Source of the DNA: Candidatus Obscuribacterales bacterium
Lineage (GTDB): Bacteria > Cyanobacteriota > Vampirovibrionia > Obscuribacterales > Obscuribacteraceae
DNA: 39,241 nt
Assembly: GCA_020050685.1 (NCBI GenBank)
Contig: JAGVKG010000019.1
Span: 1-39,241, forward strand
Direction: 5' to 3'
The notes under the pieces were generated by a model, which was not told the origin of the DNA, did not search any database, and saw nothing but the letters and a program-made list of their open reading frames with translations. Below, one piece after another: positions 5,807 to 19,062 of this stretch (its first letter is position 1; each line of letters opens with the position of its first letter). The position numbers and the translations under genes are program-made.

Positions 5807-6850
5807 TTACGGTGCTGGATCGAGGTTCGATTCGGAAGAGGGAATTATGCTTGATCCACTTGCAGTATTCTCCTGCGCAAGCTGACCTCGATATGCCACG
5901 CTCTCGGATAGAAATGTATCCATCGCCTGAAGCGCTGGCGCTGGAGTGTAAGCCGATTCTAAAAGCAAGTGACCGTTGCCGTTCAAGAGACAAAATGTTT
6001 TTTTGTCTGAGCCAAGTTTGGTCATGAATTTTGGAATCGCATTTGCTTTGTAAATTTTGTCTTCCGATCCGGCAATAATCAGGACTGGCAAATTGCGCGG
6101 GAATCGCTTGAGGTTCTTCAGTGATTTTGAATTTGTTTTCAGACTCGCTAAAGCCTCAACAATGGTCATGCCTTTGCGTACCAATGGATCTTTGAGGTAA
6201 TCGTCGATCACGCGCTGGTCTTCTGATAGGTACCTTCCAATGTACGGCTCAAGGGACACTTCCTTAAATGGATTAGTAATGCCGCGAGCCACATCAAATA
6301 TCGCCTTCGGAGTTATATGCAAATACGGCGTGATGCATGGGCTGGAAAGTACCAGTCCATCAATCAATTGTGCATATTTCTGTGAGCTTGTATTGGCAAT
6401 GGCGATTGCCAGATTTGCCCCCAGGCTTTCTCCCATAATGTAAATTGGCAAATTGGGATTAGCTTCGTGCAGGGCGACAAGTAGCTTCTCGATATCATCC
6501 TGACTTTGCTTGTAGTTCATCTTGCTCTCAGGTTTGTCTTTAAAGTCGCCAGCCAGCCATCGACCAAATCCACGCATATCCAAGGAATAGACAACAAAAC
6601 CTTCGCTTGCAAGACGATTCGCCAACGGGCTAAAGCTGCCGCTATGCAAGGTCGCCCCATGAACAGCTATAACTATTGCCTTCGTGGCAATCTGGGTGTC
6701 CTGCCACTGCCGAACGGGCAGCATTAAACTCTGGACGGCTTTGGGATTAGTGTCCTCAATAACCTCAGCCAAACTGGCGGGTATGCAAGCCAGGCTGATA
6801 AAAATGCTAGCAATTATTGAAACGGCAACTGTGCGCTTGGTTCTATCCAT
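5807..6850 (-). CDS. Secreted alpha/beta hydrolase (lysophospholipase/monoacylglycerol-lipase type)
   Basis: This 347-residue serine hydrolase belongs to the alpha/beta-hydrolase group that includes monoglyceride lipases and lysophospholipases (Hydrolase_4/S33-like). An N-terminal hydrophobic segment (about residues 8-28, ending SLAE) predicts export. Fold landmarks are visible: the oxyanion-region HGATLHSG (64-71), the DMRGFGRW strand (91-98), the nucleophile elbow GESLGA with Ser142, an Asp at 264 in GSEDKIY, and His294 in GNGHLL. The triad is complete. ATG start, with a GGGGG-rich purine stretch about 12 nt upstream. The C-terminal 35 residues are Ser-rich and lie outside the fold. The substrate cannot be read from sequence; ester lipids are likely. 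Confidence 0.85.
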   Translation of the reverse strand: MDRTKRTVAVSIIASIFISLACIPASLAEVIEDTNPKAVQSLMLPVRQWQDTQIATKAIVIAVHGATLHSGSFSPLANRLASEGFVVYSLDMRGFGRWLAGDFKDKPESKMNYKQSQDDIEKLLVALHEANPNLPIYIMGESLGANLAIAIANTSSQKYAQLIDGLVLSSPCITPYLHITPKAIFDVARGITNPFKEVSLEPYIGRYLSEDQRVIDDYLKDPLVRKGMTIVEALASLKTNSKSLKNLKRFPRNLPVLIIAGSEDKIYKANAIPKFMTKLGSDKKTFCLLNGNGHLLLESAYTPAPALQAMDTFLSESVAYRGQLAQENTASGSSIIPSSESNLDPAP

Positions 6851-7149
6851 AAGCTCTGGGTTTCCCCCTTCTACTTATTCCGTTGACCTCGGCTTCCGCT
6901 TGGCAAGTCCATTAGACCTATACCAACCCAGAAGGAAGTCCAAACCTCGTATTTTGTTGCCGATTTATCAGACAACTTAATCTAATGAAATAAATGGCTC
7001 CCCGTGGGGCTTTTGAGCGGTTGAGGGCCAAATTATGTTCGCAAATTCCGGTCTTAACAGACGTCTGGATATATGCCTTGGATAAGCGAGCTAGGTAGAT
7101 GCATTAAGTCTGAGCCCAATGCATTTTTCAATTTAGTCGTTGGTAGAAG
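6851..7149. other. Gene-free stretch between hydrolase and unknown gene
   Basis: About 300 nt without a supported gene. It should hold the hydrolase promoter, but no clear -35/-10 pair was found. The only structure seen is the short GC-rich hairpin at 6997-7010. Confidence 0.4.
6997..7014. terminator. Weak GC hairpin, possible terminator
   Basis: The bases GCTCC and GGGGC can pair (with one G-U) around a four-base loop at 6997-7010, followed on the plus strand by TTTT. It lies about 140 nt beyond the stop of the minus-strand gene ending at 7150, and no plus-strand gene ends nearby, so its role is doubtful. Confidence 0.3.
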
Positions 7150-7965
7150 CTATGCTGTTTGTACGTTAAATCCGACAGCTACATTTTCGCCAAGCTTTAA
7201 CTCTTCGTGATGATGACCGAACAATTCGTCTTCGGTCATCTTGCCGGAAGCGACGCGAACCAAATCGCCGAACAGTTCGCGTGCTAAAGATGGCAACATT
7301 TCGTAGCCAATTTCTTGACCGGAACTTTGCCAAACCACTTTGTCATCGCTATACGATGTGGTGATGTCCATGAATGGCGGAAAGTCTTGTTCCTTCATCA
7401 CGTTGTTTCGAAAACCTAAGATGTTGGCTGCCGGCATGAGGAAAACGGAAACCTTGCCATGGTAACCGCGCAAGATCAATGCCCAATATCGTGTGGCTAA
7501 GTGGCCGCGAAAAACAATGTCTTCACGATTAGGAACGGCTGTATGTTGTGAATAAGCATCCGGCCAATTTGGCGGCTCGCAGCTCACAACTAAGTCTGTG
7601 CCCATAGCACTTTGGTTGAAAGTTTTTGCGCACTCAGCGAAGCAATCAAATAGTGCATCCACCCATTTGTGTAATTGGCGTTTGGCATCGTCTTTTTGCT
7701 TTTGAGTCTGCGAACTTGATGCACCAAGCACATCTTCGCTCAAGCTATTCAACCAACTCATGGTTTCTGCCTGACGACGAGGCTGAAGTTGAGCAAGAAT
7801 TTGTTGAGACAATGCGGCCGTGTCCGACGGAGGTGGACTATATTCTTCATGCTGGCGTTTATCGAGGGGGGCCCATTTATCTTCGAAGGAACCACCACTT
7901 TTTTGTTGTTCGTCGTCGTCGTAAATCACGTTTGCATTCCCCCGCACTTGACCAAAACTGCTCAT
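7150..7965 (-). CDS. Hypothetical protein, 271 aa, cytoplasmic
   Basis: Function not recognised. The protein has no signal peptide or membrane segment. Residues 1-60 are polar and low in complexity (acidic, with a PPPS stretch), so probably disordered. The remainder (about 65-260) looks like one mixed alpha/beta domain with aromatic-rich segments such as TRYWALILRGYHGKVSVFLM (about 157-176), reminiscent of a beta-sheet core. ATG start, with GGGA about 8 nt upstream. It is divergent from the radical SAM gene at 8122 and shares its upstream region. No catalytic motif could be identified. Confidence 0.7.
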   Translation of the reverse strand: MSSFGQVRGNANVIYDDDEQQKSGGSFEDKWAPLDKRQHEEYSPPPSDTAALSQQILAQLQPRRQAETMSWLNSLSEDVLGASSSQTQKQKDDAKRQLHKWVDALFDCFAECAKTFNQSAMGTDLVVSCEPPNWPDAYSQHTAVPNREDIVFRGHLATRYWALILRGYHGKVSVFLMPAANILGFRNNVMKEQDFPPFMDITTSYSDDKVVWQSSGQEIGYEMLPSLARELFGDLVRVASGKMTEDELFGHHHEELKLGENVAVGFNVQTA

Positions 7966-8121
7966 CCATTATCCCAGCTTGGTATGGCTGGAACTGCAGA
8001 GAATAACATGAGTCTTTACACTTCATCAGGTGTCAAAGGTTAAATTCTCTTGACAATCGGGTGATCAAAAAGACTCTGCGGGGGAATAAGTACCATAGCT
8101 AAATTGACGGAGGTTTGCGCG

Positions 8122-9096
8122 ATGCAGAATTTTCTCGAACTTGAGGCTGGCACAAGAGAGAGCAAGGCTCTTTTGAGCCTGCTTTGGCTAGAAATTACGC
8201 AGAAATGTAATCTGAGTTGTGTACATTGTTACGCAGAATCGAATCCTTACAAGCCACTATCGGCAGGAATGCAATTGTCAGATTGGTATCGACTCATTGA
8301 AGAGGCTGCAAAATTAAAGTGTCAGATGATTCAATTCATTGGGGGAGAACCAACCGTTCATCCGGATTTGCCAAGATTGATTACTGCTGCTAAAGCAAAG
8401 AATATTCCGGTCGTTGAGGTCTATACAAACGGCACATGCTTTACCAACGAATTAAGGACATGCTTCATTGAAAATAGGGTTGACCTTGCTTTTTCTGTTT
8501 ATGCCGATTGTGCTGATGTGCATGACCAGGTAACCCAGGTTTCCGGTAGCCAGAAAAAGACATTGGAAGCTATAGAGTGGTCAGTAAACAACTCCCTTAT
8601 GACGCGAGTAGGCGTAATAGATACAGGAATTAATAGCTCTCATACCGACAGTGCCGTGCGGATGTTAAAGGCAATAGGGGTGAAAAATGTTGGAGTAGAT
8701 CGAACGAGATTGATCGGCAGGACTCAACTCTCTTGTGATGAAGAAGCACTTATGAGTGAATTGTGCGGCAAATGCACACCTGGCAAATTGTGCGTCACTT
8801 CTGCTGGTGATATCTTCCCCTGTGTCTTTTCAAGATTCTATAAAGTTGGTGATGCTAAGGAAGGTCTAAGGGCAGCACTTGATGGCAGCCAATTGGAGAA
8901 ATTTCAAACAGCCCTTAATAGCCATCGTTGCGAAGTGAGCGGATGTGCTCCTGATGAGGAAAACTCTGATTATTGCAATCCTGATAGACCTTCGCCGTGT
9001 AATCCGGATCAGCGCTGTAATCCAGACATTTCATGTCGCCCTGATGCACAATGTCAACCGAGGACTTGTAATCCAGGTAGAACTGGTGAAGAATAA
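8122..9096 (+). CDS. Radical SAM protein with SPASM-like region and Cys-x-Pro-Asp tail
   Basis: This is a 324-residue radical S-adenosylmethionine enzyme. The cluster-binding motif CNLSCVHC supplies Cys29, Cys33 and Cys36, followed by the GGEP motif (74-77) typical of SAM binding. A later Cys group (215, 218, 224, 234, 270, 275) resembles a SPASM/twitch auxiliary Fe-S region. The last 50 residues carry seven C-x-P-[D/R/G] units (Cys at 275, 285, 293, 299, 305, 311 and 316). The start is set at ATG 8122 because a GGAGG at 8109-8113 sits 8 nt upstream; an in-frame TTG at 8104 lacks such a site. SPASM proteins often modify peptides, but no precursor gene was seen beside it. The substrate is unknown, and the tail could bind extra clusters or itself be modified. 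Confidence 0.88.
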   Translation: MQNFLELEAGTRESKALLSLLWLEITQKCNLSCVHCYAESNPYKPLSAGMQLSDWYRLIEEAAKLKCQMIQFIGGEPTVHPDLPRLITAAKAKNIPVVEVYTNGTCFTNELRTCFIENRVDLAFSVYADCADVHDQVTQVSGSQKKTLEAIEWSVNNSLMTRVGVIDTGINSSHTDSAVRMLKAIGVKNVGVDRTRLIGRTQLSCDEEALMSELCGKCTPGKLCVTSAGDIFPCVFSRFYKVGDAKEGLRAALDGSQLEKFQTALNSHRCEVSGCAPDEENSDYCNPDRPSPCNPDQRCNPDISCRPDAQCQPRTCNPGRTGEE

Positions 9097-9120: not shown

Positions 9121-9492
9121 TCAAAAGGTTTGGACGGATGTATTTGACATATCGTGTACATCGATTTTCTTGCCCGTCATTTTTCCATGAATTATTACCA
9201 TTAAAGGACGAGATGAATTCCATGAAGCTATAAGAGATTTTGCGAGTTGATTACCACGTTTGTCTAGCACGTAGAATAGTCCATTAGTAATTAGTCCATA
9301 GCCTGATTTGCACTGTAGCGCTCTTTTGGAATCATAATTTGCCAAGGTTTTGTCTTGATCTAGCTTATCGTTGATGATCTGTGCACAATCTCGATATATC
9401 AGATATCCGCCATAGCTATTCATGCCGCTGTCCTGTGCTAGGGCCGGTAGCGAAAGCAGGGTTAAGAGTGCAAGGACAATTGGTATTCTCAT
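9121..9492 (-). CDS. Small secreted protein, 123 aa, unknown function
   Basis: Function not recognised. Residues 1-19 are a clear signal peptide (MRIPIVLALL..., cleavage after LALA), so the mature protein of about 104 residues is exported. It has two Cys (36 and 61), which could form one disulfide, and a Gly/Tyr-rich start. The C-terminal half (KRGNQLAKSLIA..., PLMVIIHGKMTG) looks like a small alpha/beta domain. ATG start, with GAGGTG about 8 nt upstream. It has its own promoter candidate just upstream, so it is probably expressed separately from nadB, which precedes it by 84 nt on the same strand. Confidence 0.7.
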   Translation of the reverse strand: MRIPIVLALLTLLSLPALAQDSGMNSYGGYLIYRDCAQIINDKLDQDKTLANYDSKRALQCKSGYGLITNGLFYVLDKRGNQLAKSLIASWNSSRPLMVIIHGKMTGKKIDVHDMSNTSVQTF

Positions 9493-15833: not shown

Positions 15834-17081
15834 TTGGCTAGCAAAGACCAAAGCAAAAGCACCGGACCAAGCGGCTTCATTGAACTCAATGGGCAGATGT
15901 TGCTTGTCGACTTTGGCAAGGTTTTTTTGGACGGCACGCCAGTCGGTTTCCTCTATGAGGATGGTTTGTTGCAAGCAAGCGCCGGACCTTTGGCTAAGTC
16001 GCATGGCATGAAGCCGATTGATGAAGTTCCCGGTTGTCGCTTCCGTGGCATCGACACTAAGGGCACGGCTTTGGAATTGCCCGGACCGATTCCCGGACCG
16101 ACCGGTACACTTTCTTATAACAACGTGCCACTAAATGTGGTGTGCGGGCGCATTGCCAATTCCGACCACCGGCTGCTTGGTTTTTATGACGACGAAGGCA
16201 ACATGATCTTGCGGGATGAGCGAAAGCCGGGGGAAGATATCCGCTTGGACGAGCATAGCCAACTGGTTTCGATATTCAAAGGCAAGTCGAGCCACGGTTT
16301 GCCCTGGCACCACGAATTTGTTCGGCCGCTTTATCGCAAGGACAAACCTTATTCGGAAAATGAGATCATTCGCTACTTTCAGGATTATGATGCGCTGTCC
16401 GGCTCGCAGAAAAAATATGTGCTTGATTGCTTGCGGTTGTGGTCTTGCTCCGGACTTTTGCAAATTGTGCGCAAGAGCGAGGGCAATGCGGCGTTAGGAA
16501 ATGTAAAACATGGCGCGGCTGGTGTCACTGGTGTGCGCACCGGCATGGCTACTTTGGACAGAGAGGAATTTGAAAAGGAAATTGTCCTCTTCAAAAAATT
16601 TGGCGCAGTCTTCACCGGGCCATCGCCTTTGCGTTCGCATTTGGAAGTGCGGATCAACTTGGTTGTTACCCATGAGTTTGGCCATCAGTTGGAGTTTATT
16701 CTTTCCAATGCAGCGCAAAAGCGCATTGTGGAATTGTACGAAAAGCGTTTGGCGCTCGCCAATAAATTGCATCCTTTGCCGAAGGGTTACGAAGGAGCGT
16801 CTGAGCTTGTCACGCCGCAACAAGTAGAGAAAAGAGTTTTCATCTCTGGATATTCGCGTGCAAGCGAACACGAATATTGGGCCGAAGCCGTGGCAGCCTT
16901 TGCCGTGAAAGAAAGTCGGCAACTGTTGAAGCAAATTGATCCTGAACTTTATGATCTTTTGCGTACTGTTGTGATGGAACCGGAGAGCGTGATAAGACCA
17001 GTGTTTGTTGATACCATTCTGGCTTTGCAAGCCAGTTTGCGAATTGGTGGCGAAATTACGGATGATTTGCTCAATGCATAA
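15834..17081 (+). CDS. Predicted zinc metallopeptidase, gluzincin-like (HEFGH)
   Basis: A 415-residue protein with a zinc site HEFGH at 280-284 and a downstream glutamate in SEHEYWAEAVAAF (Glu351) placed like the third ligand of gluzincins; the arrangement resembles the ATLF-like (anthrax lethal factor-type) family more than thermolysin. Residues 1-230 match nothing recognised and include a Gly/Pro-rich segment (LPGPIPGPTGT). No signal peptide is visible. The frame opens just after a stop at 15791, and the only usable start is a TTG at 15834 with a poor ribosome binding site, so the true start is uncertain. The 3' end overlaps the next metalloprotease gene by 8 nt, which implies co-translation. 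The substrate is unknown. Confidence 0.75.
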   Translation: MASKDQSKSTGPSGFIELNGQMLLVDFGKVFLDGTPVGFLYEDGLLQASAGPLAKSHGMKPIDEVPGCRFRGIDTKGTALELPGPIPGPTGTLSYNNVPLNVVCGRIANSDHRLLGFYDDEGNMILRDERKPGEDIRLDEHSQLVSIFKGKSSHGLPWHHEFVRPLYRKDKPYSENEIIRYFQDYDALSGSQKKYVLDCLRLWSCSGLLQIVRKSEGNAALGNVKHGAAGVTGVRTGMATLDREEFEKEIVLFKKFGAVFTGPSPLRSHLEVRINLVVTHEFGHQLEFILSNAAQKRIVELYEKRLALANKLHPLPKGYEGASELVTPQQVEKRVFISGYSRASEHEYWAEAVAAFAVKESRQLLKQIDPELYDLLRTVVMEPESVIRPVFVDTILALQASLRIGGEITDDLLNA

Positions 17082-19062
17082 TAATCATAGTCGAATTGCA
17101 TTTGCCACCACTTTTCTCTTGGTGGCTGGTTTGTTGATCTGGTCGCCAAATGTCCTTTCTCAATCGACAAAAAATACCACGCAAAGTGCTGGACAGAAGA
17201 AGCCGGTTTTAAAAGCAATTGATGTATCGAAAGCGAAATTGGACCTGCCACCGGCACCACCACCCAATCCCCTGAGCAAAATATCTGGTGCGCCGATTGC
17301 TCCACCGAAACAACCATTTTCCGATTCGCAAGGGCAACAAGTGCAAGCGCCTCAAGCTCAGCATGCTGCACCACAAGGACAAGCTTGGGGGCAAGCACCG
17401 CAAATGCCACCACAACAATATCAAGGGCAATATCCGCAACAAGGTTGGGGACAGGCGCAACCGGCATATGCGCCGCAAGCGCAATACGGGCAGCCTCAAT
17501 ATAACCAACAACAATATGGGCAACAAGGTTGGGGGCAAATGCCACCACAATCGCCATACCCGCAGCAGTATCAACAGCAAACTCCGCAGCAAACATGGGG
17601 ACAAGGGCAATCTGGTTTTGGGCAGCAACCACAATATGCCCAGCCTCAATATAACCAACAACAATTCGGACAACAAGGTTGGGGACAAGCGCCTGCACAA
17701 ATGCCACCACAAGCGCAATATCCGCAACAGTATCAACAGCAATATACACAGCCTCAATACAACCAGCAGTATGCACAGCAAGGGTGGGGACAAGGGCAAT
17801 CTGGTTTTGGGCAACAACCACAATATGCGCAACCGCAATATGGTCAACAACAATTTCGTCAAGGCTGGGGCCAACAAGCGCCCCCACAATCACAATATCC
17901 ACAGCAATATCAAGGGCAAGGTTGGGGACAATCTGGTTATGCGCAGCAAGGGCAACCTCAATATCAGCAGTCGCAGCCTCCTCAATTGGCCAATCAGGCT
18001 CCTTTAGTTACGCCTACGCCAACAGGATTTGGTCAGGCAAATAGTCCGGAAGAACAAAAGATTATGCGTTTGGAATATTTGGCTTTTGGTTCTACATATC
18101 CGGAGCATGAATTGTCCGATCGCATTGATCATTTGGAAAAGGAAATTATTGGAAAGCTGAGTCAAGCTGCCACAAGCGAACGTTTGGCAATGCTTGAATC
18201 GGCAATTGAAGGCAAAGGTGCTTTTGGAGCAGATCAAACCAAAGCTGTCGCCACAAGTGGTGGCAAGGCTTCTGAATCGAAAGTTAATCCTGAAAGTCGT
18301 TCGGAAGTTGAAGCTGAAAATAAATACAAATCTACAACTGGCTCTGCGTCTGATTTTGAAATGGTAGTGAAAGCAATTCCGGTAAATGCAAAAGCCGGCG
18401 ATTATTTTGATGCCATAACAAAATTTCCAGGCGAAACGGTTGCCCGCTGGGAGACGTTCCCTATTTTTATTCACTTGCCAGATCAATCTCCGGAATCCTG
18501 GCAACAAAGTCTCAAATCCTCAATGCAAAAATGGGGACAATACATTCCCTTGCGTGCAGTTGCCCAAGGTGAACCTGCCGATATTGAAGTTACATGGGTA
18601 AATCATTTGCCGCCGCGCATATTGGGAATGACACGATTGCAAGTAACCCATGGCAAATTGCAAGTAACAATTTCTCTGCTCAGACCAACTTATTATTTGC
18701 CGGAAGTACCGGAGCGCACTTTGCAAGGAGCATTTTTGCATGAGTTCGGACACGGACTCGGTATTTTCGGACATAGCAAAGTCAAAGGTGACATTATGTT
18801 TGCCACCGAAGTGCCAATGAAAAAGGAAGCTGCACCGCCAAAGAAATTGAAAGTGCCTGGACGTTTACCAATTGGTGGTCTGCCAGTTGGCGGATTATCA
18901 CTCAATAGATTACCGGCAATCTCCATGCCTTCATTGACGACACAAGAGACGATTAAATACGGCAACATCACGCCACGCGATATAAACACGCTGCGGAAGA
19001 TCTACGAAACTCCGACTTACCCGCGCGGCTTCGAAACCCCACAACCACTTGAGTGGCCGTAA
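17074..19062 (+). CDS. Secreted metzincin-like protease with Gln/Tyr/Gly/Trp-rich region
   Basis: A 662-residue exported protein. Residues 1-30 are a signal peptide. Residues about 85-305 are a low-complexity Pro/Gln/Tyr/Gly region with eight [AGT]-Trp-Gly-Gln units and repeated QYNQQQ blocks, prion-like in composition. A charged linker leads to a matrixin-like domain (about 455-640): PIFIHLP, the HEFGHGLGIFGHS zinc motif starting at His556, and the Met-turn GDIMFA near 574. The third His is one residue further than in the classic HExxHxxGxxH. The start is set at ATG 17074: it gives a clean signal peptide and overlaps the stop of the upstream protease gene, while an in-frame ATG at 17005 would add a non-signal leader. 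It is probably a surface or matrix-tethered protease. Confidence 0.82.
   Translation: MHNNHSRIAFATTFLLVAGLLIWSPNVLSQSTKNTTQSAGQKKPVLKAIDVSKAKLDLPPAPPPNPLSKISGAPIAPPKQPFSDSQGQQVQAPQAQHAAPQGQAWGQAPQMPPQQYQGQYPQQGWGQAQPAYAPQAQYGQPQYNQQQYGQQGWGQMPPQSPYPQQYQQQTPQQTWGQGQSGFGQQPQYAQPQYNQQQFGQQGWGQAPAQMPPQAQYPQQYQQQYTQPQYNQQYAQQGWGQGQSGFGQQPQYAQPQYGQQQFRQGWGQQAPPQSQYPQQYQGQGWGQSGYAQQGQPQYQQSQPPQLANQAPLVTPTPTGFGQANSPEEQKIMRLEYLAFGSTYPEHELSDRIDHLEKEIIGKLSQAATSERLAMLESAIEGKGAFGADQTKAVATSGGKASESKVNPESRSEVEAENKYKSTTGSASDFEMVVKAIPVNAKAGDYFDAITKFPGETVARWETFPIFIHLPDQSPESWQQSLKSSMQKWGQYIPLRAVAQGEPADIEVTWVNHLPPRILGMTRLQVTHGKLQVTISLLRPTYYLPEVPERTLQGAFLHEFGHGLGIFGHSKVKGDIMFATEVPMKKEAAPPKKLKVPGRLPIGGLPVGGLSLNRLPAISMPSLTTQETIKYGNITPRDINTLRKIYETPTYPRGFETPQPLEWP
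17596..17828 (+). repeat. Direct DNA repeat in the Gln-rich coding region
   Basis: A 44-nt block at 17596-17639 recurs at 17785-17828 with a single A/G difference, offset 189 nt (63 codons, in frame). It encodes the WGQGQSGFGQQPQYA unit, so the low-complexity region expands in frame by duplication. Confidence 0.8.

Follow-up and report, generated by a model that had tools for sequence, protein, structure and literature searches.

A widespread family of radical SAM proteins with a twitch-like domain and a C-terminal Cys-x-Pro tail that may serve as their own substrate

Introduction

The 39,241-nucleotide stretch of Candidatus Obscuribacterales DNA considered here (hereafter, the window) contains a gene for a radical SAM protein that ends in a series of Cys-x-Pro (C-x-P) units. 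What is such a tail for? An earlier note on this DNA had suggested that it might hold further Fe-S clusters or metal, act as a substrate in cis, or present cysteines for cross-linking. Several known systems bear on these proposals. The maturase PapB forms links between the Cys and the Asp/Glu of C-X3-D/E units in its substrate, and Cys-Xn-Asp with n = 0-6 is tolerated (PMC9413430). Auxiliary cluster I of CteB binds a Cys of the substrate peptide at an open site, and open sites are present in SkfB and MoaA as well (PMC6231123). Borosins illustrate that an enzyme can bear its own fused core peptide, and most RiPP aspartyl methyltransferases require a peptide that is already cyclised (PMC11285071).

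Results

A radical SAM protein with half of a SPASM domain

The gene (8122-9096, forward strand) encodes 324 residues from an ATG at 8122 that is preceded by GGAGG at 8109-8113; a TTG at 8104 is a possible but less likely start. Neither a credible promoter nor a credible terminator was found near the gene, and Rfam returned no match there. Pfam (Radical_SAM, 1.5e-13), the CxxxCxxC motif (C29/C33/C36; 8206-8229, forward strand) and the predicted barrel fold all identify the product as a radical SAM protein. Further along lies a half-SPASM/twitch motif, C215-x2-C218-x15-C234 (8764-8823, forward strand), which includes G229-x4-C234 and C224, the full pattern being C215-x2-C218-x5-C224-x9-C234. 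The first half of the SPASM signature (C-x9-15-G-x4-C) is thus present, whereas the second half (C-x2-C-x5-C-x3-C ... C) is absent and the C-x-P tail stands in its place. The SPASM-like region described in the earlier note is therefore real but incomplete, Pfam SPASM scoring 20.9 bits against a cutoff of 21.5, and its statement that the tail is not the ordinary second half of a SPASM domain is borne out. No RRE domain was matched by Pfam in the protein, in which just 28 residues precede Cys29; an RRE is not present in every known RiPP radical SAM maturase.

Every NCBIfam radical SAM match of the window protein and four relatives fell far under its curated cutoff, and the family described below is without a curated NCBIfam model. 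The protein is not a member of the PapB family (model NF047865, 50.2 bits against a cutoff of 340). In MoaA (GTP 3',8-cyclase), the substrate is bound by the free iron of a cluster with three Cys ligands in a CX2CX13C motif. The CX2CX15C of the window protein resembles this motif, but the similarity is confined to the core (62.9 bits against a cutoff of 284) and MoaA has no C-x-P tail.

Twitch domains of the MoaA/SkfB/BtrN type combine a beta-hairpin and a helix with 3-4 Cys that bind one auxiliary cluster. The AlphaFold model of the window protein has a mean pLDDT of 85 and includes a hairpin (residues 222-232) and a helix (256-273), and the three half-SPASM cysteines are invariant in the family. 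The order after the half-SPASM is helix, linker and C-x-P tail. Confidence is high as far as the end of this helix at about residue 273 (255 in the model of a Streptomyces relative), and pLDDT drops to ~35-55 in the tails of both models, being below 50 across most of residues 281-324 of the window protein. Its best PDB fold match is SkfB (6efn), and the top matches, SkfB, SuiB, EpeE and CteB, are all RiPP maturases; they support a shared fold and not a shared function. SkfB, the sporulation killing factor sactisynthase, has a twitch-type C-terminal domain with a flexible end and a possible open auxiliary-cluster site (PMC6231123), and it differs from the window protein by its N-terminal RRE, its separate precursor and its lack of a C-x-P repeat.

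Purifying selection on the C-x-P tail

Translation confirmed the seven C-x-P units noted earlier at Cys 275, 285, 293, 299, 305, 311 and 316 (in order CAPD, CNPD, CNPD, CNPD, CRPD, CQPR and CNPG), with the described spacings of 10, 8, 6, 6, 6 and 5 residues; the codon of Cys275 lies at 8944, and 8944-9093 corresponds exactly to the interval from residue 275 to the last residue. When the residues of the tail were shuffled 20,000 times, a mean of 1.2 and a maximum of 6 units were obtained, and never 7. No tandem repeat was found in the tail at the DNA level, indicating that the C-x-P repeat is maintained at the protein level.

Comparison with the closest orthologue in the genome set (L004; 62-64% identical overall), which belongs to a different genus within the family, divided this region into two parts. 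The variable linker (residues 269-284; 8926-8973, forward strand), which carries Cys270 and the CAPD unit of Cys275, shows 12% identity and a pN of 0.56. Residues 285-324, in contrast, are 75% identical with a pN of 0.164, against 65% and 0.235 for the core, synonymous sites being saturated in this comparison. Purifying selection is thus stronger on the tail than on the core (pN 0.16 versus 0.24). All six Cys and all six Pro of the units at 285-316 are retained in the orthologue, and four of the six Cys codons show synonymous change, whereas the Cys275 unit is missing and Cys270 is likewise unconserved. The conserved feature is therefore not the seven-fold tail of the earlier note, even though all seven units exist in the window protein, but the six units of a predicted disordered segment (residues 285-318, CNPD CNPD CNPD CRPD CQPR CNP; 8974-9075, forward strand). 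The genome also encodes, on a separate contig, a 49% identical paralogue that likewise has the tail.

Fusion of the tail and search for a separate precursor

RiPP radical SAM maturases generally have a separate precursor gene alongside; for the family of the window protein, no conserved one was found. The tail was fused to the enzyme in all intact members and was never found as a separate peptide, and a search with the tail only across 53 genomes of the window's order yielded three fused copies as its sole credible matches. The only further C-x-P-rich match, an ORF with CSPDSD repeats considered as a separate tail peptide, was rejected as antisense to a gene for a SESGEQ-repeat protein. In agreement with the earlier note, which had seen no precursor gene nearby, no conserved small ORF was found around the three closest loci, where conservation extends to no gene besides the radical SAM gene and a single gene for a secreted protein, or around 17 Streptomyces-type loci, where no upstream small ORF was common to more than two. 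Gene calls in these neighbourhoods were made by a simple script and compared with the deposited annotation where available. A small-ORF family that seemed associated with the methyltransferase genes in an unfiltered search consisted of low-complexity shadow frames and disappeared after filtering.

In two records the fusion is interrupted. In a Streptomyces-group genome (L147, about 6400-8750), a C-x-P radical SAM gene is split by a transposase gene/IS at the junction of core and tail; the tail lies beyond the insertion element and is followed by the methyltransferase gene. In gene 78 of Mycobacterium phage prophi68-1 (L192, 2071-2931), an in-frame TGA, either a nonsense mutation or a recoding event, occupies the Cys position of the first C-x-P unit; the deposited ORF ends ahead of the tail, which is intact past the TGA (GPNCNPQCTPQTICAPTHCVPVRGHCGPNEP).

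A widespread family

A single-sequence scan of genome contigs returned no relatives, whereas an alignment-based scan found them in Dyella, a deltaproteobacterial MAG and Streptomyces. The tail was scored on a set of 60 intact relatives. These came from Actinomycetota, from Gamma-, Beta- and Alphaproteobacteria, from a deltaproteobacterial MAG, and from plasmids and prophages or viral contigs, so that the C-x-P tail design is retained across at least three bacterial phyla plus some prophages. The earlier note had missed that such a tail marks out a whole family, unnamed and widespread. Of 150 Streptomyces genomes, 30 contained a member. Further members were found in 28 plasmid records (among them records of Amycolatopsis, Embleya, Paraburkholderia and Rhizobium), two Mycobacterium abscessus prophages and 13 viral contigs, and were sparse in the window's order (2/53 genomes) and in the Dyella family (3/97). 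PADLOC matches that might have suggested anti-phage defence reflected generic radical SAM similarity to viperin, and carriage by prophages is not in itself evidence for a defence role. A subfamily on viral contigs (L180-L182) shows a second conserved C-terminal extension past the C-x-P units, LSPxRSVRYxxPxxxxTDC, and has in common a downstream gene of 126-150 residues.

C33, C36, C215, C218 and C234 are invariant in the 60 members, with the spacing C215-x2-C218-x15-C234 exact in all of them, while C29 is present in 59 and C224 in just 11. Each member has between 2 and 9 C-x-P units, which account for 270 of the 289 cysteines located past Cys234 (93%), compared to 56 units in shuffled sequences. 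The search profile contained the tail, hence some bias is possible in these counts, but the tail was not needed for a match since the same profile also pulled a tail-less outgroup. These tail-less relatives, from 39 genomes, have LSCxDC and were set aside as non-members. A single origin of the C-x-P clade received weak support (SH-aLRT 59).

Unit number and spacing (3 to 29 residues across the family) differ between subfamilies while the C-x-P unit itself is constant; the cysteines thus change position as whole units and not at random, random variation being one of the outcomes that the earlier note had set against its own proposal. Inside close groups the tail is stable, as in CTPPQFLPMCGPCGPCVPSVGHCDP. 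The residue following the Pro is acidic in 39 of the 45 units of the window's clade but in only 31% of all units, so that C-x-P-[DE] is not universal. In the deltaproteobacterial relative, seven units of 9 residues differ from one another by 0.3 residues on average and yet by 6 of 27 bases; near-identical as protein and divergent as DNA, they are repeated units each under selection, a pattern compatible with repeated cores. Two related radical SAM genes (L115 and L154) have CPQxC units amid their C-x-P units; NRPS, desaturase and TauD-like genes surround the former.

Neighboring genes

About 15 actinobacterial loci have a gene for a methyltransferase of 370-420 residues immediately downstream and co-directional. 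Its nearest model is TIGR04188, the graspetide-type aspartyl methyltransferase, under whose cutoff it falls (265.7 bits versus 380). The Streptomyces relatives resemble graspetide-type cassettes in this respect, but no ATP-grasp or precursor gene was noted next to their methyltransferase gene. At nine other loci the downstream gene belongs to one of two phosphotransferase-like kinase families, with an AAA-type ATPase gene between the radical SAM and kinase genes at two of the nine; the cassette of L183 and L199 consists of the radical SAM protein, an AAA-type ATPase weakly similar to mad3/AriA models, and the phosphotransferase-like kinase.

At the window locus, neither a methyltransferase nor a kinase gene adjoins the radical SAM gene. 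The adjacent gene, convergent with it (9121-9492, reverse strand), encodes a small predicted secreted protein of 123 residues from a 'GYLxxRxC' family that has no Pfam match. A secreted-protein gene adjoins the radical SAM gene at all three closest loci, and two of the six copies of this family in the genome (the window copy and L214-L218) sit by the two C-x-P radical SAM genes; a link between the two kinds of gene is putative. Elsewhere in the window, 17005-19062 (forward strand) encodes a putative metalloprotease-like protein with an HExxH region and a long, low-complexity N-terminal repeat region rich in Gln, Tyr and Pro.

Discussion

The reading that we tentatively favor, at a little short of an even chance, is that this radical SAM enzyme with its twitch-like domain modifies its own C-x-P tail, probably by forming Cys thioethers. 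It is suggested by the invariant fusion, the missing precursor, the flexible tail, the variable core-like units and the RiPP-type partner genes, taken together with the precedents of PapB, CteB and the borosins. All intact members have a fused tail that is enriched in C-x-P; selection acts on the tail itself; the number and spacing of its units vary freely, unlike those of fixed ligands; and it is disordered in two AlphaFold models. The aspartyl methyltransferases of RiPP pathways mostly need a cyclised precursor, and yet the tail was the only candidate precursor found. The top fold matches being RiPP maturases points the same way, as does the resemblance of C-x-P-[DE] in the window's clade to the Cys-Xn-Asp/Glu substrates of PapB. 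Of the three options in the earlier note, the evidence thus favors an in-cis substrate with cross-linking, auxiliary-cluster ligation being the less probable option.

What the sequences and models show is the architecture and its conservation, the invariant fusion, the absence of any conserved precursor gene, the predicted disorder and the partner genes found in relatives; the auxiliary cluster and the self-modification are our inferences, as are the kind of bond and a release of the tail, if there is one. A small radical SAM enzyme with a twitch-like domain and a RiPP-maturase-like fold would have, in the flexible tail at its C-terminus, the peptide on which it acts. One auxiliary Fe-S cluster would be expected at its C-x2-C-x15-C motif, and a tail cysteine could reach a free or labile site of that cluster. 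A residue close to each Cys (most probably, in the window's clade, the Asp/Glu of C-x-P-[DE]) would then be activated by the 5'-deoxyadenosyl radical and bonded to the thiol, unit after unit, as in ranthipeptides. In relatives, the adjoining methyltransferase or kinase may tailor the tail further.

The maturases of freyrasin (PapB) and of other ranthipeptides (SCIFF) are radical SAM enzymes with a C-terminal auxiliary-cluster domain, as proposed for the window protein, and in each of the six Cys units of the PapB substrate the Cys precedes an acidic residue in C-X3-D/E (PMC9413430), compared to C-x-P-[DE] in the window's clade. These maturases differ by their full SPASM domain and their separate precursor peptide, whereas the window protein has the Cys units in its own C-terminus. 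For the modification of a core fused to its enzyme, the precedent is found in the OphMA-type precursor-methyltransferases of borosins (PMC11285071), which differ in chemistry and fold, the modification of the C-x-P tail being putative.

Other features argue against self-modification. The acidic residue at +3 is not universal, the window gene has no methyltransferase or kinase gene beside it, there is no RRE or leader-like region, and the tail is conserved in close pairs rather than hypervariable as in many RiPP cores. The position of the tail also counts against it and bears on the main alternative, namely that the tail is a relaxed second half of a SPASM/twitch domain, whose auxiliary cluster, begun by C215/C218/C234, would take its remaining ligands from the foremost one or two C-x-P cysteines, the extra units being spare ligands or a second cluster and the substrate lying elsewhere. 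The first C-x-P cysteine is found 39-58 residues (median 42) past Cys234, where SPASM/twitch proteins keep cluster cysteines, and the repeat begins past the last confident helix, where the twitch protein SkfB puts two of them (PMC6231123). The minimum of two units per member would suit a pair of ligands, the actinobacterial members have just three fixed half-SPASM cysteines, and at the corresponding place the tail-less outgroup carries ...LSCxDC... or CSLCELRYVCFDC. We nevertheless find this serious alternative less likely than self-modification in view of the number of units (2 to 9), their widely varying spacing and tandem expansion, a Pro at +2 that is no rule among cluster ligands, the four cysteines (C215, C218, C224 and C234) already available in the window's clade, and a tail that AlphaFold does not place. 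No characterized family in which such a tail ligates clusters was found, nor did the open-licence literature yield a matching paper on a C-x-P, Cys-rich or fused-precursor tail of a radical SAM protein. Self-modification and cluster ligation may each hold in part.

That the tail is instead an unmodified, flexible thiol- or metal-binding strand, aiding a separate reaction through metal storage, electron entry or redox switching, would agree with its being disordered, rich in Cys and Asp, and variable in copy number. Such a strand would leave the strict C-x-P grammar and the RiPP-type methyltransferase and kinase partners unexplained, and the CxC/CxxC patterns typical of metallothioneins are rare in the tail, making this an improbable role. 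Adjacent partners and tails both differ by subfamily, and the convergent secreted protein recurs at all three closest loci, as might be expected if the tail served for docking or as a scaffold, bringing in a partner protein or a substrate encoded elsewhere in the genome. However, no partner is common to the whole family, equal Cys units are rare as docking motifs, and the convergent secreted-protein gene is not co-transcribed and has four further family copies elsewhere in the genome; we regard docking as improbable too.

Returning to self-modification, we consider it possible, although somewhat doubtful, that the family as a whole constitutes a widespread and undescribed one-gene class of modified-peptide systems, in which a radical SAM enzyme cross-links its own variable C-x-P core units in cis, a methyltransferase or kinase tailors them in some lineages, and prophages and plasmids carry the gene. 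Were the tail to bind clusters, auxiliary-cluster ligands could come from a repeat of variable length, with consequences for the debate about what SPASM/twitch clusters do. Were it the substrate, the family would be a radical SAM counterpart to the fused-precursor borosins and would explain how such enzymes work with neither a precursor gene nor an RRE. Self-modification, if true, would represent a new kind of one-gene modified-peptide system, and many actinobacterial, proteobacterial and prophage genes annotated as 'radical SAM protein' would be open to peptide discovery.
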